Virus record (IMG/VR): IMGVR_UViG_3300044974_000781
Location: 1 to 28,408 of that record
From: a virus
Length of the DNA: 28,408 bases
Strand: one strand, 5' to 3'
The notes under the pieces were generated by a model. That model had not been told where the DNA came from, searched no databases, and worked only from the letters and a program-made list of their open reading frames with translations. Position numbers and translations under genes: made by a program. Below are positions 1 to 25,057 of this stretch, piece after piece (within the stretch, counting starts at the first letter, position 1; each line of letters starts with the position of its first letter).

Positions 1-41
1 TATATGACATTAGTTTTGCTTCAATGAAACTCAGAAAGTAT

Positions 42-1022
42 TTATAAAAATTCTATAATTTCATCCTCAAAAGTTAAATCTTTCGCTTTAACTTTTCCAC
101 GAGTTTTAGTATAAAACTCGTGATTTTCTGTAACTTCAATTAAAATTCCATTATCAAATTTCAATTGAAGCATTTTTGAATTTGAGCTCTTTAATAAATT
201 TTTATGAACTTTTACAATTTCATCTTCTATAAATGTTCCGTCTTTATTCATTGAATAAACAATATCTCCAATTTTTAATTGGGATATTTCAATGTCGCCA
301 TTGGGAGTTTTTACTTTCTGTGAACCTGAAAAACATTCATCCCAGATTAGAGCTTGGAAATTATCAAGTAGTCTTGGTTGATATTGTAATGCTTGCCAGG
401 TAGCGACTACGTTTAAGTGGTCAATATCTTTATTGTCGCCAGAGTATACTCCAGTGTCCATACCAACACCACGATAGAATTCGACAGTCTGGTCAACTAA
501 GTCAGATGATGGTACTATTGTAACACAATTATACCCAGCAGATGAAAATGCATGAGAAATTCCTGCGGTCATCAACGTTTTACCAGCACCTGTGCCTGCA
601 ATAATAAACCCACAGCCATGTTCAATACAAAGATTGATTGATTGAGCTTGATATGGTCGAAGATAAACATTAGGTATTAAGTTCGATTCTTCTTCTTCAT
701 TGATTTCTTCATCAGTTATTAAGAATACTTCTTCGTTTATCAAAGGTGGTAAATCATAATAACTTCGCTTATCAACTAAGTCAATTTGATATTGCCATTT
801 TTCTATAAGAGGAATGATTTGAGTTAAGAGCTTAACATATGTCTTTCCAGTCTTTTCAAAAAACCTAACTCGTCCATCCCATCTTCCCATGACAAATAAT
901 GGCATATGTCTATACCCATCAACATATGGGCCAAATAATTCCCAGAGCATATCAACATGAAATTTGTCTAATCCTTGGATTGAACACCATACTTCATTTT
1001 GAATTGTGATTTTTACAATCAT
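42..1022 (-). CDS. uvsW: UvsW-type recombination/repair helicase, N-terminal part ending in a split-intein half
   Basis: Superfamily 2 helicase of the T4 UvsW family, which unwinds branched recombination and stalled-fork DNA. The N-terminal domain carries the UvsW-like DGYR...GRWDGRVR stretch. Motif I is GTGAGKT, and a Ia-like VPSSDLVDQT follows. At residue 229 the sequence reaches motif II (IWDE), where T4 UvsW has DECH. Instead of continuing, residues 230-326 are an intein N-terminal segment (starting CFSGSQKV) and the frame stops at TAA. Helicase motifs III-VI are absent, so the second half must be encoded elsewhere, presumably at lower coordinates outside the window. I place the start at ATG 1022, overlapping the uvsY stop as ATGA. 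An upstream in-frame start at 1079 would lie inside uvsY and adds 19 non-homologous residues. The family call is firm; how the product is completed is inference. Confidence 0.9.
   Translation of the reverse strand: MIVKITIQNEVWCSIQGLDKFHVDMLWELFGPYVDGYRHMPLFVMGRWDGRVRFFEKTGKTYVKLLTQIIPLIEKWQYQIDLVDKRSYYDLPPLINEEVFLITDEEINEEEESNLIPNVYLRPYQAQSINLCIEHGCGFIIAGTGAGKTLMTAGISHAFSSAGYNCVTIVPSSDLVDQTVEFYRGVGMDTGVYSGDNKDIDHLNVVATWQALQYQPRLLDNFQALIWDECFSGSQKVKTPNGDIEISQLKIGDIVYSMNKDGTFIEDEIVKVHKNLLKSSNSKMLQLKFDNGILIEVTENHEFYTKTRGKVKAKDLTFEDEIIEFL
45..335 (-). other. N-terminal half of a split intein
   Basis: These 97 residues look like a Hint/intein N-part. Cys1 directly follows the extein residues Asp-Glu. 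Block A reads like CFSGSQKVKTPNGDIEISQL followed by KIGDIVYS. A block B-like segment ends in VTENHEF, with the conserved Thr and His four positions apart (T-x-x-H pattern). The reading frame ends about 20 residues after block B, a length typical of naturally split intein N-fragments. No C-terminal blocks (F, G with His-Asn) follow before the stop. The insertion is at the helicase DECH box, so splicing would join DE to a C-extein beginning with Cys-His and rebuild motif II. Confidence 0.85.
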
Positions 1023-3768: not shown

Positions 3769-3984
3769 TTAGTCAACAAAGCGACAAAACTCTCCAGAGT
3801 CAAGAGCTGCTTGTGCTTCTTCAGGTGAAGCAAAGTATTGGCTATCACGAGTGCCAGGACCACTTTCATTGGCATTATCTGGGTCATGCCAAAGTGAGCC
3901 AATGTAATAGCCACGAGCCGATTCCAACACCATAAGATGGGAATAGTGTTTTCGTTCTTCGAAAGGAACTTGGTTTGACTTCAT
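3769..3984 (-). CDS. Small conserved-looking phage protein, function unknown
   Basis: 71 residues, starting in an ATGA overlap with the end of the HD-Pnk-like gene, so probably translated with it. No domain is recognised with confidence. The sequence has an ARGYYIGSLWHD core and ends in a segment resembling FASPEEAQAAL, a pattern I associate with small phage proteins of unknown function. There is no signal peptide or membrane segment. Its stop codon lies inside the upstream part of the early gene 32 promoter. Confidence 0.65.
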   Translation of the reverse strand: MKSNQVPFEERKHYSHLMVLESARGYYIGSLWHDPDNANESGPGTRDSQYFASPEEAQAALDSGEFCRFVD

Positions 3985-5147
3985 TTTACCTCTGAAAAAT
4001 CGTAAGAATAAACTGAACCTAAGGTATCAACTTCAGTTCCAACTAAAGGTGTAGAAATCCGAAAGTATTGGTCACGGATACTTGATGTTGGAATACTTTT
4101 GTCATTCCTAGTTGCTTGTCGTGCAACACATACGTCGAATGGTACATGGAACCGAACGGCATGGACCATGTAAGAGTGCTGACGTGCAAGAGTAATCCAT
4201 TTACGTCGAGCTTTTGCTGATACGTTTGAGATGTCAAGAAAAATGTTTCCTTTACGTTTGATAAGTACCATGAAAGCTTCCAAGCAATACTTGTCAAAAG
4301 CTTTCTCCACTTCTTTATCTTCTGAGCGATGGCAATAGTTCCATGCTTTATGATAATCAGGTTCATTACCTGTTTGACGGGAAACATAAAAACCGACACG
4401 ATGCTCATCCAAACTAAACAAGTATTCAGACGGACCATCTGCATCATCATATGAAAAGCGTTCATAAAATAAAGAAGATTTACCAGAACCAGATGCCCCT
4501 ATTGCAACAATCATATAAGGAGTGTCCAATTCTTTTGAAGTTTCCATTAGTGGTTGAGTCAAAGCAAATTTTGCAATCCATTCTTCAACACGAGCAAAAG
4601 TTCCACCAATATCATCACTTATTCGGCCATGTGCATCTGACCTAAGAACATCATAGTACATTTGAATAAGTTCTTCGCCACCTAAACACATCATATGAGT
4701 TTTCAGTGCAATCAATTTGTCTCTGCCAGTTTTGTCATAAGGCAAATGATGTTCAATCAAACAACGAACTTGGTTTAATTCATTATGAACCAATTCTACT
4801 TCTTTTTCAAAGAGTTGCCATTGTGACAATGCATAGTCTTCAAATAGATTAGCAGAAAAAAGTTCATGACCTGGATAACTGAAATAAACACCTCTTTCTT
4901 CTGAACGTTTTTCAGTACGAGCCATAGGCTTGCCAACATCATGGAACAATAGTGCAAGCTTTGTCAAAATACGTTGGGTAGGAGTTCTTGAACGAGCAAC
5001 ATTATCTTCATACCATTGCAAGCACATACGAGTGTGTTCTAACACATTTGCTTCTCGATGGTAAGGACTATCCTCACGAATTTGAAGCATATCTTGACCT
5101 AAAGAACTCTTCACTACTTGTTGATAAAGTTTATCGAATCCGCTCAT
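3981..5147 (-). CDS. HD phosphoesterase / polynucleotide kinase fusion (HD-Pnk-like end-healing enzyme)
   Basis: 388 residues with two domains. Residues about 20-195 are an HD domain: His38, His69-Asp70 in FHDVGKP, GHE at 93-95, His133-His134 and Asp171. Residues about 210-385 are a P-loop kinase with GASGSGKSS at 217-225, an SLDEHR stretch and an Arg-rich lid (RQATRND). This order matches the HD-Pnk family, in which the HD domain removes 2',3'-phosphates and the kinase phosphorylates 5'-OH ends, healing broken RNA or DNA before ligation. T4 does the same job with PseT, which has a different phosphatase. Substrate is inferred from family only. A strong early promoter lies upstream, so it is probably made early, when host tRNA-cutting defences act. 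Confidence 0.8.
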   Translation of the reverse strand: MSGFDKLYQQVVKSSLGQDMLQIREDSPYHREANVLEHTRMCLQWYEDNVARSRTPTQRILTKLALLFHDVGKPMARTEKRSEERGVYFSYPGHELFSANLFEDYALSQWQLFEKEVELVHNELNQVRCLIEHHLPYDKTGRDKLIALKTHMMCLGGEELIQMYYDVLRSDAHGRISDDIGGTFARVEEWIAKFALTQPLMETSKELDTPYMIVAIGASGSGKSSLFYERFSYDDADGPSEYLFSLDEHRVGFYVSRQTGNEPDYHKAWNYCHRSEDKEVEKAFDKYCLEAFMVLIKRKGNIFLDISNVSAKARRKWITLARQHSYMVHAVRFHVPFDVCVARQATRNDKSIPTSSIRDQYFRISTPLVGTEVDTLGSVYSYDFSEVK

Positions 5148-5628: not shown

Positions 5629-6423
5629 ATGCGATTCAAAGAATTCCTAATCCTAACAGAAGATTTGATGAACTTACTAGCAGAAGCAATAAGTCCTGAA
5701 GTCAGACGTAACCGTAAAAAGATGATAGAGTATTACTTGAAGCTTGACAACTATTCATATTGGAATGGAGGTCATGCAATGGAAGTTGCTAAGTTAGCAA
5801 GGGATTTTGGAAAGTATTTAGGATTAGATGCAAATAAGCTAGCTTATTCTGCATTGACACATGACTCAGGTAAAGTGCATGTTGATAAACGAGTATTGCA
5901 CAAACCTGACTTATTGGAACCTGATGAAAGAAAGCATATCAGCTCTCACGTTTCAGATGAAGAACATATCAAACATCTTAAGCATTTGACCGGAGAGCAT
6001 GGAGTATTTGCTAGACTTGCATTGATGTATCATCATACTCGTCCTGATGAAATAGACAAGAAAGTTCAAGCTGGAGAACTTGGTGATGATGAAGCAGAAA
6101 TTGTAAAGATTATTACAATATGTGATGTATTTGAAGCATTAGTATCTGAAAAGAGACCATACAAAAAACCTATTACTAAGTATGATGCTCTTTCGTTAAT
6201 GGAGACATTGGCAGTAATTGACAAAGAAACTTTTGCTAAATTTGTTAAGTGGCAATATCAAGAATTTGCTAACGAATATAGAAAAGATTATGTTGAAAAG
6301 AATAGAGCTAGATTAGAACAAGAGTATGAAGTCAATAAAGAAGTATATGCTAAGAAATATGCAGAATACTTAGCGACATCTAAAGCTAATCCGAGAAAGT
6401 TCAATCCGCAACAAGAAGATTAA
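5629..6423 (+). CDS. HD-GYP-like phosphohydrolase with a capsid-targeting N-terminus
   Basis: 264 residues. The start MRFKEFLILTE resembles the T4 capsid-targeting sequence (for example MKTYQEFIAE of internal proteins), with LTE a likely gp21 cleavage site. The rest is a metal-dependent HD domain: His49, His78-Asp79 in THDSGK, His135-His136, Asp166 in ICDVFEAL, then KRPYKK. The last block and the spacing resemble HD-GYP cyclic-dinucleotide phosphodiesterases, but the GYP motif itself is replaced (HHTRPD). A late promoter lies 50 nt upstream. No clear ribosome site precedes the ATG. Inference: packaged in the head and injected, perhaps to degrade a nucleotide signal. Substrate is unknown. Confidence 0.8.
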   Translation: MRFKEFLILTEDLMNLLAEAISPEVRRNRKKMIEYYLKLDNYSYWNGGHAMEVAKLARDFGKYLGLDANKLAYSALTHDSGKVHVDKRVLHKPDLLEPDERKHISSHVSDEEHIKHLKHLTGEHGVFARLALMYHHTRPDEIDKKVQAGELGDDEAEIVKIITICDVFEALVSEKRPYKKPITKYDALSLMETLAVIDKETFAKFVKWQYQEFANEYRKDYVEKNRARLEQEYEVNKEVYAKKYAEYLATSKANPRKFNPQQED

Positions 6424-7787
6424 TCGTTTTCCTGCTGAAATACGATTTCAAGATTATAACCCGTTTTATTCAAAATTTCTTGTTCAAATACTTTAGTATC
6501 AATTAGTTGATTACAAATAAAGCCATCATGTATCAAGAGAAACTGAGCATTCATTTCGGTTAGTAACGAGCTAACTACATCAATAGCTAATCGTTCAGCA
6601 CCAAAATACCAATGAGCTACTGCTTGCTTGGAATTCCAGCGATTCATCGTTTTAATCCCACCTGCTTGATTGACTAATTGAATAGAACCATTTTCTAATG
6701 TAGTTGCTTTTTCTCGTAATACATATGCTAAATGTTTGAATACTTTAGTTTGACATTCATTTACGATTGAAAGAAACAATTCATTAGATAATAACTTCTG
6801 AGCAATCTCTGGACCAAAAGTATTGATAACCGCAAAAGTAAATCTATCAACTTTATGACTATTCTTAGCAACATATTCAATATCCCAAAGAGCTTGTTTT
6901 TCCGATGGTACAGTTTGTCCAAAGAATAAACCTGTTAGAACTCTTTTCACCGTTTGTTCTTCTACATTGATTTGTTTTGCAATAGCTGCACGAATTTCTT
7001 TTCTATTTTCAATGAACATTTCAATTGCAGGCAACGAACCGTTTGGAACAAGTTTGAAGTATTCTTGAGATAGAATTGATGGAGCACATGCTTTGAAATC
7101 ATAACTATACCAATCAGTAAATAGTTTAGTTCGTGCTTCCTTTTTAAGGTTTTGTAGAGGATGATGTAATCGTCCAGTGTTAGCAACTGAATATGATATT
7201 GGTGTTCCATTCAATAGACTTGTTGCATATGCTTTGACTATCAAATAACTTGGAACATTTGATTTATCAATCTTTGATAAAACCGGTAATTGAATATAAC
7301 CACTTTCTATATTAGATTCTTTATATCCGCCAAAACCATGTTCGTCAATCAAAGTTTTGATAATTCGAGACCAATATGGATTTGCATCAAATCGAATATC
7401 AGTAATCAATCCAATAGAACGTTTGATAAAGTTTTCAGATGGAATCCATTCACGAGCTATATTTTTAGTATAACTATAAGTATGGTTTGTTGTGAGATAA
7501 GGTTCTAATTCAGCATATACATCAAATTGCCAACGATGAGAATTTAGAAGATTCTTACACCACCAAGAATTGTAAATAACTATTCCGTTACCATTCTTAT
7601 GTTTTGAATATGGTGAATGAACCCATAGACATAATTGAGAAAATGCACTAATGAACTTAGACCATTGCTTACGGTAAGTAACCTTGACAATGTCTGGGCG
7701 ATACAATTCCGGAAAGTGCTCAAACAGTAAAGCATTTGAGCACTCATTACTTGTCGCCGCCGTTAAGGTGTCATCATTGATATGCAT
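6420..7787 (-). CDS. Compact family-A polymerase-like protein
   Basis: 455 residues with no 3'-5' exonuclease domain visible. The second half carries a sequence order like DNA polymerase I: NTGRLHHPLQNL (residues 203-213, compare TGRLSS..PNLQN), a motif A candidate YSYDFKACAPSIL with Asp230, a motif B-like KRVLTGLFFG (281-290, compare K...YG), and a motif C-like IHDGF (419-423, compare VHDE). The first 190 residues are not recognised. It could be a divergent DNA polymerase, primer-synthesising enzyme, or single-subunit RNA polymerase relative. I chose ATG 7787 because a promoter lies at 7821-7850 and AGG precedes it; the longer frame to 7937 would cross that promoter. It meets the HD-GYP-like gene tail to tail, sharing 4 nt. 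Confidence 0.6.
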   Translation of the reverse strand: MHINDDTLTAATSNECSNALLFEHFPELYRPDIVKVTYRKQWSKFISAFSQLCLWVHSPYSKHKNGNGIVIYNSWWCKNLLNSHRWQFDVYAELEPYLTTNHTYSYTKNIAREWIPSENFIKRSIGLITDIRFDANPYWSRIIKTLIDEHGFGGYKESNIESGYIQLPVLSKIDKSNVPSYLIVKAYATSLLNGTPISYSVANTGRLHHPLQNLKKEARTKLFTDWYSYDFKACAPSILSQEYFKLVPNGSLPAIEMFIENRKEIRAAIAKQINVEEQTVKRVLTGLFFGQTVPSEKQALWDIEYVAKNSHKVDRFTFAVINTFGPEIAQKLLSNELFLSIVNECQTKVFKHLAYVLREKATTLENGSIQLVNQAGGIKTMNRWNSKQAVAHWYFGAERLAIDVVSSLLTEMNAQFLLIHDGFICNQLIDTKVFEQEILNKTGYNLEIVFQQEND

Positions 7788-7820
7788 ATTACCTAATCTA
7801 TAGATATAGTTATAAAGAAC

Positions 7821-7850
7821 ATTATAACACAAATCACAGGAGCTTGTTAA
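7821..7850 (-). promoter_or_regulatory. Probable early promoter for the polymerase-like gene
   Basis: Minus-strand TTAACA (7845-7850), 18-nt spacer, TATAAT (7821-7826). The -10 lies in a 7-bp inverted repeat (7809-7815 and 7822-7828). It overlaps the ribosome-site region of the divergent plus-strand gene. Confidence 0.5.
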
Positions 7851-7854
7851 GTTT

Positions 7855-8322
7855 ATGAGAGTCTTATCTGACGCAGCCGTACATCCAAATCGCATCGTCT
7901 TACCAGTAGTTGATAGCTTCCCTGATACACCTATCACTGGCGAACTTATCTACTTCAACCGCTCTCCACATCAAGCAATGATGCTTTACACTGGCGAAGG
8001 TTGGGTTCCTCTTTATAGCACTCGTAACAACATTTGGGAAAGACATATTGCAGAACCTCAGCAAAAAGTATTTGACTTAACTAATGAGTATGATACTGAT
8101 GGGAATAGTTTAGTTGTGTACAAGGATGGACGAAGATTACAACCTCATATGTATGCTGAAGTAGGAAGAAGCATCGTCACTTATAAAGAAATAGATGAAG
8201 AAACTGGTGAAGATATTGATCTTTATGGTGGTGAAGAATTTGAGTTTCAAATCTTCAATGTCAGAAAAACTGGAAGTTTCAATGTTAAGAGTTTCAATCG
8301 TCGTGTAGGAGTTGATGTCTAA
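7855..8322 (+). CDS. Probable virion structural protein
   Basis: 155 residues, no signal peptide and no catalytic motif. The pattern is beta-rich. The middle reads VFDLTNEYDTDGNSLVVYKD followed by GRRLQPHMYAE, a form I associate with phage fibre or appendage domains in which a Val-Tyr-x-Gly-x-x-Leu strand recurs. AGGAG lies 12 nt before the ATG. A TATAAAGA octamer upstream on the plus strand could be a weak late promoter. It overlaps the next minus-strand gene by 4 nt, tail to tail. The structural role is inference; no specific T4 gene is recognised. Confidence 0.6.
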   Translation: MRVLSDAAVHPNRIVLPVVDSFPDTPITGELIYFNRSPHQAMMLYTGEGWVPLYSTRNNIWERHIAEPQQKVFDLTNEYDTDGNSLVVYKDGRRLQPHMYAEVGRSIVTYKEIDEETGEDIDLYGGEEFEFQIFNVRKTGSFNVKSFNRRVGVDV

Positions 8323-9029
8323 AACTCTGCATACTCGTCTAAATCCTTTTCGATCAATTCTCGTTGACAGGCAATAGCGTCGTTATTGCCATTTTTTATA
8401 TATTCAAAAATTATTTTTTTTGCTTGCTTAAAATTTTCTACTTCATCTTTTTTAGTCAAAGAAGATAACACTATATCTTCCAAATTTTTAATTTTCAAGA
8501 AACTTAAGAAACCTTTATAATTGGGCGGAACTACTATATAACCATTGACCTGTTTGAATACTTTATCCATACGATTAGTAATTGGCATACTATGCCAAAC
8601 TACATTTCCTTTAATAATAGATGGACAACCTTCTAAAGTTAAATTTGGACAATATAAAACTTCAAGATTTCCTTCGATTTCATCTGGGAATCCGAGGAAA
8701 GAACTTAACTTTAAACTATTCAATATTAAACCATGTTGCCAATGTTTAATATTAGCAGGTAAATACCATTTACCATCATGTTCAACTAATAATTCATCCG
8801 CAATTCTGTGGCTATAGTAAGGTATAAGATACCCATTATTATCAAAGAAGCCGCCAAAATAACAATTATTAAAGTTATCCGGAAATCCTACGTAATCTTC
8901 CCCACCAACTCTCTGACTTTTGAACGAACGATAGCCAGGCAGTTCTAATAGCTCTTCATTAGATTTAGCTTGCCATGGATAATGAGTACTATTATCTTCT
9001 TTTAGTAAGTATTGTTTAAAACTCTGCAT
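8319..9029 (-). CDS. Capsid-targeted protein, downstream copy of a tandem paralogue pair
   Basis: 236 residues, clearly related to the neighbouring gene at 9016-9759. It starts MQSFKQYLLKED, a capsid-targeting-like sequence with a likely gp21 cut after LKE. Both copies then carry STHYPWQ, SNEELL and LPG, then a leucine-rich-like unit with FLGFPDEIEGNL and CPNLTLEGCPSI, then PITN, VPP and GFLSFLKI, and an almost identical end CQRELIEKDLDEYAEF. The start overlaps the upstream stop by 14 nt, so the two are translationally coupled. Function is unknown; a packaged head protein is inferred from the N-terminus. Confidence 0.75.
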   Translation of the reverse strand: MQSFKQYLLKEDNSTHYPWQAKSNEELLELPGYRSFKSQRVGGEDYVGFPDNFNNCYFGGFFDNNGYLIPYYSHRIADELLVEHDGKWYLPANIKHWQHGLILNSLKLSSFLGFPDEIEGNLEVLYCPNLTLEGCPSIIKGNVVWHSMPITNRMDKVFKQVNGYIVVPPNYKGFLSFLKIKNLEDIVLSSLTKKDEVENFKQAKKIIFEYIKNGNNDAIACQRELIEKDLDEYAEF

Positions 9030-9759
9030 ATTCGTCTAAGTCCTTTTCGATCAATTCACGTTGACATGTAATAGTATCTCTATCACCAATCAAATGGTCA
9101 TTTACAACTTCTTTAGCTTCGAAAGCTTCTTGTTTATATAATTTGCTATACTCATTTGCTATTGGCAAATATAATGATTTCAATTTATTAATCTTTAAGA
9201 AACTTAAAAAACCTCTATACGCAGGAGGAACTATAATAGTTCCTCCAATTTCCTTGAATACTTTATCAATGCGGTTGGTAATTGGCATTTGCCACCAAGC
9301 AACACTATGACCGATTATTGAAGGGCATTCTTCTAATGTTAGATTAGGACAATTAGTAACTGTCAATGAACCCTTGATTGTATCTGGGAATCCGATGAAT
9401 GAACTTATCTTCACATCATTAAGTGCTAGGTCATCACTACGTTGACTGTTTTTCCATTCTTTTATTCGAAACGGAATATACCACTTACCACCATGCTCAA
9501 CTAACATAGCATCAACAATAAATGCCCAATTATCATCCATTTCAAAATATTCGTTTTCATCTATTCTACCTGAAAAATATACTTCTCCTGTATTAGTATC
9601 ATGAAATACTACAACATCTCCACCAGGTTCGTCATAACGTTCTTCATCATATTTGACCCAACCAGGCAATTTTAAAAGCTCTTCATTCGAAGTAACTTGC
9701 CATGGATAATGAGTACTAGTATCTTCCTTGAGATATTGTCTAAAAGTCCGTTTATTCAT
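9016..9759 (-). CDS. Capsid-targeted protein, upstream copy of a tandem paralogue pair
   Basis: 247 residues, paralogue of 8319-9029 with the same architecture. It starts MNKRTFRQYLKED (likely gp21 cut after LKE). Residues follow the STHYPWQ, leucine-rich-like CPNLTLEECPSI and PITNRIDKVF blocks and end in CQRELIEKDLDEYAEF. It starts inside the end of the upstream small gene (8-nt overlap). The leucine-rich-like part has only about two units, too short for a full LRR solenoid. No catalytic motif is seen. Function is unknown. Confidence 0.75.
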   Translation of the reverse strand: MNKRTFRQYLKEDTSTHYPWQVTSNEELLKLPGWVKYDEERYDEPGGDVVVFHDTNTGEVYFSGRIDENEYFEMDDNWAFIVDAMLVEHGGKWYIPFRIKEWKNSQRSDDLALNDVKISSFIGFPDTIKGSLTVTNCPNLTLEECPSIIGHSVAWWQMPITNRIDKVFKEIGGTIIVPPAYRGFLSFLKINKLKSLYLPIANEYSKLYKQEAFEAKEVVNDHLIGDRDTITCQRELIEKDLDEYAEF

Positions 9760-10075
9760 ATTGGTTTTTCATTACCTTATGAAGTGCTGAAGAATAGTGG
9801 TGATGAATATCTGCGGACGGTTCAAACTCATGGACAACTTTTTGTCCATTATAGATTTTACCACAATGAGTAATCTTATAATGTTTGTTCTTATGCTTGA
9901 ACTTAAGAACACCTTTAGACAAGTCATCATCAGATGATTTGAGTTCAAAGTCTAATGTATTAAAGTGAGCACCTTCAATTACTTTTTTGATAGATGAAAT
10001 CAAATCATTCTCAGAATGCTTAGTCAAATCTTTTTCTTTTACTGTAGGTTTGTCAAATAAATCTTTTAGCTTCAT
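9752..10075 (-). CDS. Small charged protein of unknown function
   Basis: 107 residues, Lys- and Asp-rich, starting MKLKDLFDKP. The C-terminal half contains a beta-like LKFKHKNKHYKITHCGKIYN stretch and a His-rich DIHHHYSSALHKV segment. No family is recognised. It sits 6 nt after the stop of the metallopeptidase/VWA gene and overlaps the first paralogue, so it belongs to the same operon as the likely packaged proteins. It lacks a clear L-x-E cleavage site near its own N-terminus. Confidence 0.65.
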   Translation of the reverse strand: MKLKDLFDKPTVKEKDLTKHSENDLISSIKKVIEGAHFNTLDFELKSSDDDLSKGVLKFKHKNKHYKITHCGKIYNGQKVVHEFEPSADIHHHYSSALHKVMKNQYE

Positions 10076-10081
10076 AAGGTT

Positions 10082-11989
10082 TTACGCGTTTATAAATGAT
10101 ACGAAAAAATTTGTAAAGTTTCCCTTTTTTAAAAAATCTTCATAATTCTTCTTAGTGTCAAACAATACAAATACCCTGCCCTTTTTGGAGTTTAATAACG
10201 AAACTAATATATTATAATTTTCGCCGTGAATAATATCATCGTCAGAAACAATAAGTATATTGTAATTTTTTTCTAGTAATTTCTTAAGATCTTCTAATAT
10301 TTCGTCAGTGAAATTAGTAGCACCACCAGGATGATCTTTAAAAACTGCACTTAATTTAGAATCCCATTTAGATGGTTTATCTAAAATGTTAATTACATGC
10401 GCTGCTTTATCACCGTTGAATAAAATTTTATGTTTAGTATGATCATTACTAAACTTTATCAATGTCATTTCACAATTACGCAAACCATCATTAGTAGCTA
10501 ATAAATTATAAATGTTTGAATATATCTTTTGAACCGAACTTGTCATTGAACCAGAATTATCAATACAAAAACAAATCTTTGCTTCTATTAAATCTAATGG
10601 TATTTCACTTGGTGGTAATGCGCCAGCTCCAAGTTGAGCTGCTACGTGTAATCCTGAAATACCTCTTCGTGATGGTTTTAATCGAGATTCCTCAACTTTG
10701 TCAGAATTACTAGGAAGAAGTAATCTTAACAATGATCGCCAATCATGTTTCGGAGCAACTTTGGTATAATCCATTTCGGTAGAAGTACCCTTATTTGAAC
10801 CTCTTCCACCTTTTTTCGCGTCATTTGCTTGCTTTGCACGTTCTTCATCACGTTTTCGCAAATCGTCAGCCGCTTCTTTAGTATCTTTATCCTTAGCATC
10901 CTTCATCTGTCCTTCAGTTTTTTCATTCTGTTTATCAATTTTATCCCATGGATTTCCACTACCTCCAGTGCCTTCACCTTCCCCCTCTCCTTCCTGGCCC
11001 TCTCCTTCTCCTTTGCCTTTTTGACCTCCCTCTCCTCCTTCATCCATTTCTTTACCTTTTTCTTGACCGGGTTGGTGATCATCACCCATTTCATCTAAAG
11101 CTTTTTTCAATCGTTGTTGCTGTTCATTATTTAGTTTTTTGAATTCACTTTCAACAAGGTCATACATTTCTTTATATGAGCTTTGTCTATCATAATTGAT
11201 TTTATCGTTGAATAGTCCCATCGGAAGTTGTTCATATCCTGATTTGACTAACAAATAATTAGTTCTAAAATCTCCAACCCAATTGATTATATCTGGATCA
11301 GCATTAGGAATAATCTTTTGATAATGAAAATCATCATAAGTATAGTGCATAAATTCATGAATGATTGCAAATTCACAATAGCAATATTCATCTGGAAAAT
11401 TACCGCCATTACATTGATACTTTTTGCCTTTTGGCTTAACTTGCTTTAAGTGAGCTAATTCCATTAACCTTTGACAAAAAACAGCATTAAATGCAAATAT
11501 GCCATTAGGAGTAGCACATGCAGTAGGTATATCTGCAAACTCCGGATAATCCGGATTATCAGTAAAGATAGTTGCTGCATCATATAAACGTTTATGATTT
11601 AAGAATGAGCGGAGCGGATAAAACTGCTCATGGTCGGCTTTTACGCGCGTTACTAATTGTTGAAAAATATTTCTGTTGAACTTTGGACAAGTTGGCGAAG
11701 ATATACTATGTTCTTCCATCAACTTAAAAGATTCATCTTCAATAATGTTTTTTAGAATAGTTCCATATAAGATGGGGGCTTTAGCAGCAATATCAGAAAA
11801 ACTTGCAAGTTTTTTATTAAAATCATCTTCAATTTCTTTAACAGAACGATTTGTAATTCTAGCAGTTTCTGCTAGAATTTTTTGTATGTGCGGGTCTGTA
11901 AGTTTAGACTCGCTAAACTTAACCGTTCCTTCCTTCCACTTTCTTACTTCAAATCCTTCAATAATAAGTCGTTGATATTTAGTTTGCAT
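10082..11989 (-). CDS. Metallopeptidase-like protein with C-terminal VWA domain
   Basis: 635 residues. The N-terminus MQTKYQRLIIEGF resembles a capsid-targeting sequence with a cut after IIE. Residues about 100-290 carry a zinc-protease signature HEFMH (211-215), with Asp240 in NWVGDF as a possible third ligand. A long Gly/Glu/Lys-rich low-complexity linker spans about 300-400. Residues about 468-635 are a von Willebrand A-like domain with the MIDAS motif DNSGSM (477-482), GGATNFTD and VSDDD. This pairing matches bacterial DUF2201-type metallopeptidase/VWA proteins. TAGGA lies 9 nt before the ATG. If packaged, it could act on host proteins after injection; target unknown. Confidence 0.8.
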   Translation of the reverse strand: MQTKYQRLIIEGFEVRKWKEGTVKFSESKLTDPHIQKILAETARITNRSVKEIEDDFNKKLASFSDIAAKAPILYGTILKNIIEDESFKLMEEHSISSPTCPKFNRNIFQQLVTRVKADHEQFYPLRSFLNHKRLYDAATIFTDNPDYPEFADIPTACATPNGIFAFNAVFCQRLMELAHLKQVKPKGKKYQCNGGNFPDEYCYCEFAIIHEFMHYTYDDFHYQKIIPNADPDIINWVGDFRTNYLLVKSGYEQLPMGLFNDKINYDRQSSYKEMYDLVESEFKKLNNEQQQRLKKALDEMGDDHQPGQEKGKEMDEGGEGGQKGKGEGEGQEGEGEGEGTGGSGNPWDKIDKQNEKTEGQMKDAKDKDTKEAADDLRKRDEERAKQANDAKKGGRGSNKGTSTEMDYTKVAPKHDWRSLLRLLLPSNSDKVEESRLKPSRRGISGLHVAAQLGAGALPPSEIPLDLIEAKICFCIDNSGSMTSSVQKIYSNIYNLLATNDGLRNCEMTLIKFSNDHTKHKILFNGDKAAHVINILDKPSKWDSKLSAVFKDHPGGATNFTDEILEDLKKLLEKNYNILIVSDDDIIHGENYNILVSLLNSKKGRVFVLFDTKKNYEDFLKKGNFTNFFVSFINA

Positions 11990-12755: not shown

Positions 12756-14750
12756 TTATTCTTCTTCTTTCTTTTGTTGACTATCTTTGTCTTCTTCTTC
12801 GTCGTTATTGCTTTCTTTTGCTGGCGTCGGTGCCGATTCTTCGCCATTGTCTAGAATACCTGCAGCAGGATTGACTAAAAATCCCCCAGCACTTAATGTC
12901 TTACGTCCCAAAAGTATATTATACTCCATATGTTCACGGTCAGTAACAGAAAGTTCAACATTTCGTAAAGTAATTCCGTCTATGACCATGTCAACACGAA
13001 TGACTGGTCTTTCGTCTTCGTCAGAAATACTTGATTGCTTAATGCTTGCTGAACGAACAAGGTGGAACTTGTAACGTGATTTGCCAAACGTAAATTTGAC
13101 AGACGAGTCGGTTACTTCAATATCCGTTCCATGAATAGAGCTTACATTTGCACCTGTATCAACTCGAGCTTCAATCGGCTCTTCATTGTTGAAATGTTTG
13201 ATAGTAACTTTAGTAAGTGAGCCAACAATCTTATCACCTTCAATGTCATGAATTGGAACCTCAATAACTTTGTCATCTGTAACTTCAGGAGTTGGTTCCT
13301 CTTCTTCTTTCTCTTCTGGCTTTTCCTCAACTGGAGGTTCTTCTTCTTCAGCAGGCTTTTCTTTCTCTTCATCACTACCACCATCTCCAACTTTTTCATT
13401 ACAGTAATCAATGATAGCATCTGCGATTGGTTTGTCAATAACCTTTTGCATTGCTTCAAATCCTGGAGAGCCGTTAACTTCAAGAAGTACAATATCATCA
13501 CCATCAATAATGTAATCAACTGCGGCCAAAGAAATACCTAAAGTTTCTGCCGCTTTGATACAGGCTTCAATTTCTTCTTCAGTTGGTTTATGTTCTTTAA
13601 GTTCAGCACCTTGATGTGCATTACTGCGGAAGTCACCGTCAGGAATACTTCTCATAACTGCAGCTAATACTTTTCCATCTAACAATAGAACACGAGCACT
13701 TTCAGAATGTTCAATGAACTCTTGTAACATAAACTGCTCACCTGATTTCAATAGCAATTGAATGATTGAAGTCAAACTTGCTTTACTATCTGCACGAACA
13801 ACACCAACGCCATGTGTTCCGAATAAAGTTTTGACAATGACTGGAAACTTATTACCTATTGCTTCTAATGCAGCATCAACTTGTTCTTCATTAGTGAATA
13901 CAGCAGTCTTTGGAGTTTTGAGACCAGCATCATTCAGTAAGATTTGAGTTTCAACTTTGTTACTAGCAATTCGCATTGACTTACCAGTGTTCAATACCTT
14001 AATGTCCATCTTTTCTAAATGATTGATAATCGCACACTTATAATCAAGGTTATCTTCCGAAAGACGAGGTATAACGATGTCAGCTCCAGAAAATCTTTTG
14101 CCTTCATGAGCAATGAATGGGTCTTGAGCTAGTGAGATAAAGCAAGTGTCTGGGTTGATAGTTTGAACAGTGAACCCTTTTTCTTGTGCAACTTTATCAA
14201 GTTCTTTAGGAACCCAGTTCTCAGGTTCGGTCGTCAATATGATGAGAGTTTTTGACATGTTGAATACTCTTTCTAGAACGTAGTTTTTTGGATGGTTAAT
14301 ACCCGCAAGCTCTAACATTCGCTGAGTTTGAGATTTTTGTTCAGTCTTATTTTCAACAACTGTTGCTAAAGCATTTAGCATTGCATCTTTACATTGGGCT
14401 TCACGAGCTAATGATTGTTTGCACAACTTGATACGTTTAGTTATTCTGCTATTCTTACCTGGACCATTGACTATAATGTCAATATCAACAAAGAAGTCGT
14501 TATTGATTGGAGCAGGTTCATTATTACCTGGTTCATAAGCCGATGTAGGAACATCATAGTTTGTTTGACGGGCTTCACCAACATAGAAGTAATATTGGGA
14601 AATGTCGATTTGTTCTGGTTCTACGGGTGCAGGGCCAATGGTTGGAACTTGTTCAATTCCAGTATCATCGCTAAATGGCGAAGTTGGAACACTATCAATA
14701 GGATTTGAAAAAGTTATTTCTGTAGGTTCTGGATTTAGATAAGGAAACAT
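12756..14750 (-). CDS. RimK-like ATP-grasp ligase fused to a retropepsin-like protease domain
   Basis: 664 residues. Residues 1-165 are a Pro/Asn-rich extension. Residues about 166-455 are an ATP-grasp ligase of the RimK type: NKVETQILLNDAGLKTPKT, PVIVKTLFGTHGVGV, QEFIEHSESARVLLL, and the metal site VLLEVNGSPGFE. After a Glu/Pro-rich linker (about 456-495), residues about 496-630 resemble the RimB/ATP-dependent zinc protease-like aspartic fold: ARVDTGANVSSIHG (DTGA at 531-534) and NILLGRKTL. RimK ligases add amino acids to protein C-termini, and the protease-like partner is often their neighbour; here they are one chain. The start is ATG 14750 with GGAG upstream; a TTG start at 14780 is less likely. 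MSKTLIILTT at residue 165 could be an internal start. Confidence 0.85.
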   Translation of the reverse strand: MFPYLNPEPTEITFSNPIDSVPTSPFSDDTGIEQVPTIGPAPVEPEQIDISQYYFYVGEARQTNYDVPTSAYEPGNNEPAPINNDFFVDIDIIVNGPGKNSRITKRIKLCKQSLAREAQCKDAMLNALATVVENKTEQKSQTQRMLELAGINHPKNYVLERVFNMSKTLIILTTEPENWVPKELDKVAQEKGFTVQTINPDTCFISLAQDPFIAHEGKRFSGADIVIPRLSEDNLDYKCAIINHLEKMDIKVLNTGKSMRIASNKVETQILLNDAGLKTPKTAVFTNEEQVDAALEAIGNKFPVIVKTLFGTHGVGVVRADSKASLTSIIQLLLKSGEQFMLQEFIEHSESARVLLLDGKVLAAVMRSIPDGDFRSNAHQGAELKEHKPTEEEIEACIKAAETLGISLAAVDYIIDGDDIVLLEVNGSPGFEAMQKVIDKPIADAIIDYCNEKVGDGGSDEEKEKPAEEEEPPVEEKPEEKEEEEPTPEVTDDKVIEVPIHDIEGDKIVGSLTKVTIKHFNNEEPIEARVDTGANVSSIHGTDIEVTDSSVKFTFGKSRYKFHLVRSASIKQSSISDEDERPVIRVDMVIDGITLRNVELSVTDREHMEYNILLGRKTLSAGGFLVNPAAGILDNGEESAPTPAKESNNDEEEDKDSQQKKEEE

Positions 14751-14798
14751 AGTATATGTAACTCCGCAAGTGTGAGGCAATTCGTTAAAAGATATACT

Positions 14799-24247: not shown

Positions 24248-25057
24248 TCATTCAATTCCTATTACATCTCTAAATTGTGGTTCTTCGGCTCTAAATATCA
24301 TCCCAACTGCATTTGATACTTGAACTAACCGTGGAAAGTTCATTCTTACCACTCTACTCCGAGATATTGCTCCAGCAGGTCTGTGTTGTGCCGGAATTCT
24401 TTCGCATTCTTCTTCAGTCAAGAACTCCATGAACGTCTTACGTTGCCAGTAAGAACCGCGTTTGAAGTTATCAGCCAATCCGTTCCAATCGAACCCTACT
24501 TCGTATAGCATTTGAACCCGACGTTTAGTTGGAACCCCTTTAAGTTGGACATTCGTAAACTTTGTATGAGCACACATGCTTACACTGTTCTTAGAAGCAT
24601 CCCATTCCCGCCATGTCAAATTATCAACCGCAGAACTTAATGATGGAACATGCCATACACGACAATCAAATGTTGGAACAATGCCACGTGGAATTGGAAA
24701 CCGATATTGGTCCATTTCTTTTGCAAAAATTACCGATGCATATGACGCAAGAGTTGAACATATCTTTTGGATTCGACCATCAAACATATCCAAACTTTCC
24801 CAGACCAAAGTTATCTCATCGCTTTGAGTATAACCAACATCTGGTTGAAAAGCTTCAACCAATGTTTTAGCAGTATGCTCCATTGAACCAACAATACGAC
24901 AGTCAAACGGCTTATTCGCATCTTTAGTCAGAGTATGAAAAGCTCGCCCGTCAAGACGAGCAATCACTGGCACTCCAGAAACTAATCGAGCTCCAGCTGA
25001 AATCAACTCTAACTTCTTCTGTTCGTCACCCAATGATTGGAAATCTATACTTGCCAT
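24248..25057 (-). CDS. thg1: Thg1-like 3'-5' RNA polymerase (tRNA-His guanylyltransferase family)
   Basis: 269 residues, the usual Thg1 length. The palm-like catalytic core shows RLDGRAFH (Asp36) and GYTQSDEITLVW (Asp80-Glu81), the metal-binding residues of the family. Thg1 and its bacterial TLP relatives add nucleotides to the 5' end of tRNAs in the reverse (3'-5') direction, and TLPs repair truncated tRNAs. In a phage this suggests tRNA repair, which pairs with the HD-Pnk-like enzyme in this window. It starts 4 nt after the 69-aa gene, with AGAGG upstream. Confidence 0.93.
   Translation of the reverse strand: MASIDFQSLGDEQKKLELISAGARLVSGVPVIARLDGRAFHTLTKDANKPFDCRIVGSMEHTAKTLVEAFQPDVGYTQSDEITLVWESLDMFDGRIQKICSTLASYASVIFAKEMDQYRFPIPRGIVPTFDCRVWHVPSLSSAVDNLTWREWDASKNSVSMCAHTKFTNVQLKGVPTKRRVQMLYEVGFDWNGLADNFKRGSYWQRKTFMEFLTEEECERIPAQHRPAGAISRSRVVRMNFPRLVQVSNAVGMIFRAEEPQFRDVIGIE

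Follow-up and report, generated by a model that had tools for sequence, protein, structure and literature searches.

How can a helicase gene serve its phage when its reading frame leaves the enzyme in the middle of a catalytic motif? The question is posed by the minus strand of IMG/VR virus record IMGVR_UViG_3300044974_000781, analyzed here over its entire length of 28,408 bases (the window). An open reading frame (ORF) with its ATG at position 1022 encodes the N-terminal half (229 amino acids, aa; 336–1022) of a UvsW-type helicase of superfamily 2 (SF2), reaches motif II at ...LIWDE (Glu codon at 336–338) and continues as the N-terminal fragment of an intein (IntN). The gene very probably hosts a mobile fractured-gene cassette, made of IntN, a free-standing homing endonuclease and the C-terminal intein fragment (IntC), and inserted in uvsW exactly where Glu meets Cys in the DECH box. 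Comparisons of sequences establish the anatomy of the cassette, its exact empty and filled sites, its transfer as a unit and the purifying selection acting on it.

The N-half is matched in Pfam by ResIII (7e-13), DEAD (2e-7) and UvsW_N (1e-5), and by PHROGs 16259 and 16. Motif I reads GTGAGKT (576–596), and UvsY-like and UvsX-like genes adjoin uvsW. Pfam and PHROG matches to the UvsW N-domain and SF2 motifs, found on both halves of the gene, assign the protein to UvsW. The next 97 residues (CFSGSQKV...EIIEFL, 45–335, minus strand) form IntN. A reading made from the sequence alone had placed a 97-residue intein N-part at motif II, and each line of evidence agrees with it. IntN exceeds the cut-off of Pfam Hint (3e-8), and a profile built from four sequences of its type retrieves the split inteins NrdJ-1 (4e-8) and gp41-1 (5e-5) from the PDB. 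Its AlphaFold model (mean predicted local distance difference test 81) matches the split NpuDnaE IntN (template modeling score 0.79), gp41-1 and NrdJ-1. Cys1 (codon 333–335), a TxxH block B (TENH, 120–131) and half of a Hint fold are those of the N-fragment of a class 1 split intein. Other phages, S16 and PM2 among them, have sequences at this helicase site that are 51% identical to IntN over 96 residues, and the assignment is therefore not due to chance. The span 42–338, given by the sequence-only reading, has to be trimmed at both sides, as 336–338 is the last host codon and 42–44 the stop codon closing the N-precursor. C-terminal splicing blocks are missing from the window because the record stops 41 bases past this stop codon.

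The remainder of the gene lies in near-identical contigs, retrieved by scans with the extein and IntN, which extend beyond the end of the window (L005, L006, L008 and L009). In L008 the uvsW N-half and IntN (8001–8981) are followed by a 325-aa ORF (9013–9990) and by IntC fused to the uvsW C-half (9941–10795). The order is the same in L005, and L006 and L009 reach the C-half before ending. In all four the last ORF begins with MKLLSKIEIDKPEIVYNLHVKNNHNYIVHGAVVAN|CHGAK and goes on with UvsW motifs III–VI, so that splicing would restore WDECHGAK. IntC (L008:9941–10045) carries block F, the terminal Asn and Cys+1 (...YNLHVKNNHNYIVHGAVVAN|C). The cassette is 100% identical in the four contigs; its flanks show differences, at no more than a few percent of sites. 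As in fractured genes, a free-standing endonuclease ORF thus separates the IntN and IntC ORFs of a conserved enzyme gene. Most of what had been foreseen from the window is found here: a helicase encoded by two genes, an exact site at which a Cys-His C-extein restores DECH (junction WDE|CH), and an endonuclease gene starting at the ATG at window positions 8–10. The 325-codon ORF starts at exactly that ATG; its first codons (ATG TCA TAT A, 1–10, minus strand) are cut by the record end, and it is complete in L008:9013–9990. The C-intein had been expected to end with His-Asn, and ends with Ala-Asn in the contigs of this phage. The element had also been said to be a dead fragment should the C-half be missing everywhere, or should a full-length uvsW exist elsewhere. 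The C-half is present, and neither the window nor the longer contigs, including one of 41.7 kb (an incomplete genome), showed a second uvsW copy.

Uninterrupted alleles define the insertion site. Relatives L011–L013 (76% identical) have an intact 470-aa uvsW which reads IWDECHGC. In Proteus phage Pm5461 uvsW is uninterrupted and encodes 501 aa, whereas PM2, of the same genus, bears the cassette; out of the 687 bases of their N-exteins the two share 670, and the PM2 insertion falls at GATGAG|TGC with no base gained or lost. Since filled (PM2) and empty (Pm5461) isolates exist, splicing, cutting and homing are directly testable. Queried with IntN, isolates of the Salmonella S16/STP4-a group and Proteus PM2 (51% identity) carry the arrangement always in uvsW, with IntN followed first by an ORF of 876 bp and then by the C-half of uvsW. 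IntN-nuclease-IntC interrupts uvsW likewise in Prevotella phage Lak-B2, where TAG is read as Gln. The genes uvsW_1, hypothetical protein and uvsW_2 of S16, STP4-a and PM2 (PHROGs 16259, 22417 and 9690) are thus the same cassette at the same site, with IntN 51–52% identical to that of the window; they differ in that IntC ends with His-Asn and in being annotated as separate genes. The S16, PM2 and SEA1 records list split helicase genes plus a hypothetical protein, and no intein, so that annotations of well-used phages such as S16 are corrected. Among the papers searched, none has uvsW together with 'split intein'. The suggestion that a split intein in UvsW is undescribed holds as far as annotation is concerned, but the arrangement is not confined to this phage, being present in S16, STP4-a, PM2 and Lak megaphages. 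In PM2 a second endonuclease-like ORF (236 aa, L003:8043–8753) lies directly after the uvsW C-half, before a uvsW.1-like gene.

The 325-aa product combines NUMOD3 with a TnsA-like endonuclease domain (PF08722, 2.5e-6, above cut-off) and matches PHROGs 22417 and 15427. Its model, confident over most of residues 191–320, has TnsA as the best PDB fold match (match probability 0.97). The protein has the core fold and the E...D...(E/Q)xK residues of TnsA-like PD-(D/E)XK enzymes, and E206, D237, E248 and K250 are invariant in 26 relatives, as predicted for this superfamily. The EDxHD active-site motif defines Vsr-like homing endonucleases. Membership in that group was rejected on active-site residues, as the protein has E248-x-K250 and no HD at the last position; I-Bth0305I is a weak fold match only (rank 9, match probability 0.47). 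Fold searches of a viral library gave as best named matches ORFs of PM2, CP20 and PspYZU05, among others; head completion nucleases were also present. The cassette nuclease domain is related, by profile and fold, to head completion proteins of the T4 gp4 type (PHROG 218; L079:3932–4372). The latter share the nuclease domain but are encoded by a structural gene outside intein halves, a kinship which hints at descent of one from the other. A search by two patterns, which is weak evidence, confirmed no relatives of the nuclease in bacterial or archaeal genomes; the 26 aligned nuclease rows diverge too much to serve for scanning by pattern.

A profile scan with the nuclease identified 55 viral contigs, about 45 of which have IntN upstream and/or IntC downstream; L073–L076 and L078–L080 were left out, as they match head-completion genes or other ORFs rather than cassettes. 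According to Pfam and PHROG, most cassettes reside in UvsW-type helicase genes, others in a second helicase (phrog_2488), a clamp loader (phrog_168), terminase, and a CobS-like AAA ATPase (phrog_249). Relatives of the nuclease separate the halves of the terminase large subunit gene in HY03, PspYZU05, Thanatos-2 and JK32, and of phoH in CP20. All loci that were read at base level (29 of 29) have GAYGAR|TGY as their site; these are the Asp-Glu|Cys codons of Walker B, and their synonymous positions vary freely across loci. Cys1, TxxH, Asn and Cys+1 are retained in an alignment of 26 cassettes, except for block B in the CobS-like row. We give an even chance to the view that this cassette lineage is specialized on the Walker B/DExx box: its PD-(D/E)XK nuclease would read the Asp-Glu-Cys codons and hop among non-orthologous P-loop ATPase genes (UvsW, second helicase, clamp loader, terminase, PhoH, CobS-like AAA), and nucleases would also be swapped between resident inteins. 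A split-intein family with such a nuclease, and with a single site motif in six ATPase families, touches a long-standing question, namely how inteins select active sites and pass from one gene to an unrelated one.

Cassettes and host genes have different histories. The window and S16 share 52.1% identity in IntN but 24.1% in the N-extein, 58.8% in IntC but 25.6% in the C-extein; S16 and PM2 are 89% identical in IntN and 61% in the N-extein. In the pairs L042/L043 and L049/L050, synonymous divergence (dS) of exteins ranges from 1.7 to saturated, and is 0–0.11 in the cassette, in IntN, nuclease and IntC alike; identity jumps from 60–88% to 92–100% at both junctions. Low dS and identity steps imply that the three parts moved together, and recently; at the sequence level, horizontal movement of the cassette as a unit is thereby demonstrated. 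Ratios of nonsynonymous to synonymous divergence (dN/dS) of 0.05–0.33, mostly 0.05–0.25, denote purifying selection in both intein and nuclease. Many deep branches of the trees lack support. In the intein tree, clamp-loader inteins group in a single clade (97/98), and that of phrog_2488 falls inside UvsW inteins; clamp-loader nucleases reside in two places of the nuclease tree, and their union into one clade was rejected (approximately unbiased test, p-AU 0.008). That the inteins form a clade and the nucleases do not points to nuclease exchange between inteins, and the trees fit a cassette hopping between genes, with such exchange.

The cassette is expected to work as follows. The two ORFs would be translated as UvsW(1–229)-IntN and IntC-UvsW(230–478). 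The intein halves would come together, and a trans-splicing reaction, in which Cys1, Cys+1 and Asn cyclization follow one another, would join the exteins. Trans-splicing would restore an intact DECH helicase, which with a broken motif II should be unable to work. The NUMOD3/PD-(D/E)XK nuclease would cut uninterrupted uvsW alleles of co-infecting phages at the Walker B codons, near GATGAATGTCATGG; in relatives, its targets would include the corresponding codons of other ATPase genes. Repair from the cassette-bearing copy would spread all three parts together.

The end of IntC invites other readings. The penultimate residue of inteins is usually, though not strictly, His. S16, PM2 and three clamp-loader cassettes conform to this, whereas the majority of UvsW cassettes have Ser, and the phage of the window and L045 have Ala. 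Given the Ala-Asn ending, Asn cyclization must go without the usual His. Some inteins lacking it do splice, and Ser being the rule in the UvsW group, a non-His residue appears to be tolerated in evolution; many natural split inteins with penultimate Ser or Ala may be useful for protein-ligation chemistry. It is unlikely that splicing is conditional, with Ala-Asn slowing Asn cyclization and the intein timing UvsW activity in infection: in its favor, splicing is reportedly affected when the penultimate His is missing (PMC5874633), and nearly the whole UvsW group has Ala or Ser instead; against it, S16 and PM2 carry His at this site, and some inteins without it do splice. Non-splicing halves, which would leave UvsW as two non-covalently associated polypeptides with dead intein remnants, are improbable. 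The lost His would agree with them, and split phage enzymes working without splicing have been reported, as Aeh1 NrdA after insertion of mobE (PMC2988022); the intein codons are nonetheless under the purifying selection described above, the splicing residues are kept in the 26 cassettes, bar block B of the CobS-like row, and an insertion of 100 residues inside motif II would disrupt ATP hydrolysis.

The record ends 41 bases after IntN, as a product of faulty assembly or a fragment in decay might, but such a reading is scarcely credible: independent contigs from different metagenomes cross the same junctions with intact ORFs, on which ground an assembly artefact was rejected, and isolate genomes share the arrangement. 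The fractured-gene cassette has points against it as well. Ala in place of His could slow or condition splicing; the genome of the window is incomplete, and may hold a second intact uvsW. The TnsA fold match has an E-value of 0.1, parts of the nuclease model's N-terminal half are of low confidence, and a long branch in the nuclease tree blurs the recent history of the window nuclease. Splicing, cleavage and homing are steps that we infer.

Fractured genes, in which split inteins are accompanied by a free-standing nuclease, were reportedly described by Dassa et al. in 2009, and the nuclease is said to be of the Vsr-like EDxHD type. NrdJ-1, the closest solved relative of the window IntN, presumably comes from that set. 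The likeness lies in an enzyme of phage DNA metabolism that IntN and IntC divide, its halves separated by a free-standing endonuclease gene; the present cassettes differ in the UvsW host, in the NUMOD3 plus TnsA-like PD-(D/E)XK nuclease, and in a DE|C site common to unrelated ATPase genes. AceL-TerL and VidaL are atypically split TerL inteins. The split T4-like gene 17 of HY03, PspYZU05, Thanatos-2 and JK32 has the same nuclease family between its halves, at DE|C of Walker B, but IntN measures 33–43 aa only, and the C-half bears the greater part of the Hint domain. In JK32 and Thanatos-2 the nuclease is moreover fused to IntN: the short IntN is in frame with it (L021:467–2212 and L024:1660–3411), possibly an intermediate between nested and free-standing nucleases. 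SegE of T4 is a homing endonuclease also targeting uvsW (PMC2988022), but it is a GIY-YIG enzyme, encoded between inh and uvsW, without intein; S16 has another homing endonuclease gene at this place. Inteins at P-loop sites are already known (PMC5874633), and those of TerL cluster close to ATPase motifs (PMC5050341). New here are the UvsW host, the PD-(D/E)XK/NUMOD3 nuclease, and a single DE|C site over six ATPase families.

Other features mark the window and its relatives. Just downstream of the cassette, at L008:11977–15417, nrdA is a second fractured gene: a different split intein divides it, and a GIY-YIG nuclease (Pfam) lies between the halves; L011 has the same nrdA IntN as L008, yet its uvsW is uninterrupted. 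The remaining features are all on the minus strand of the window. A 505-aa ORF (6423–7937) has no Pfam or PHROG match. Two similar adjacent ORFs (236 and 247 aa; 8322–9759), both ending with RELIEKDLDEYAEF and without Pfam match, make a tandem duplication. A 674-aa ORF (12759–14780) fuses a RimK-like ATP-grasp ligase to a Zn_protease-type (retropepsin-like) domain, and 24251–25057 encodes a Thg1 family protein (tRNA-His guanylyltransferase, Pfam 6e-28). At 3984–5147 an HD domain is fused to an AAA_33 kinase-like domain, perhaps as an RNA or DNA end-repair enzyme.
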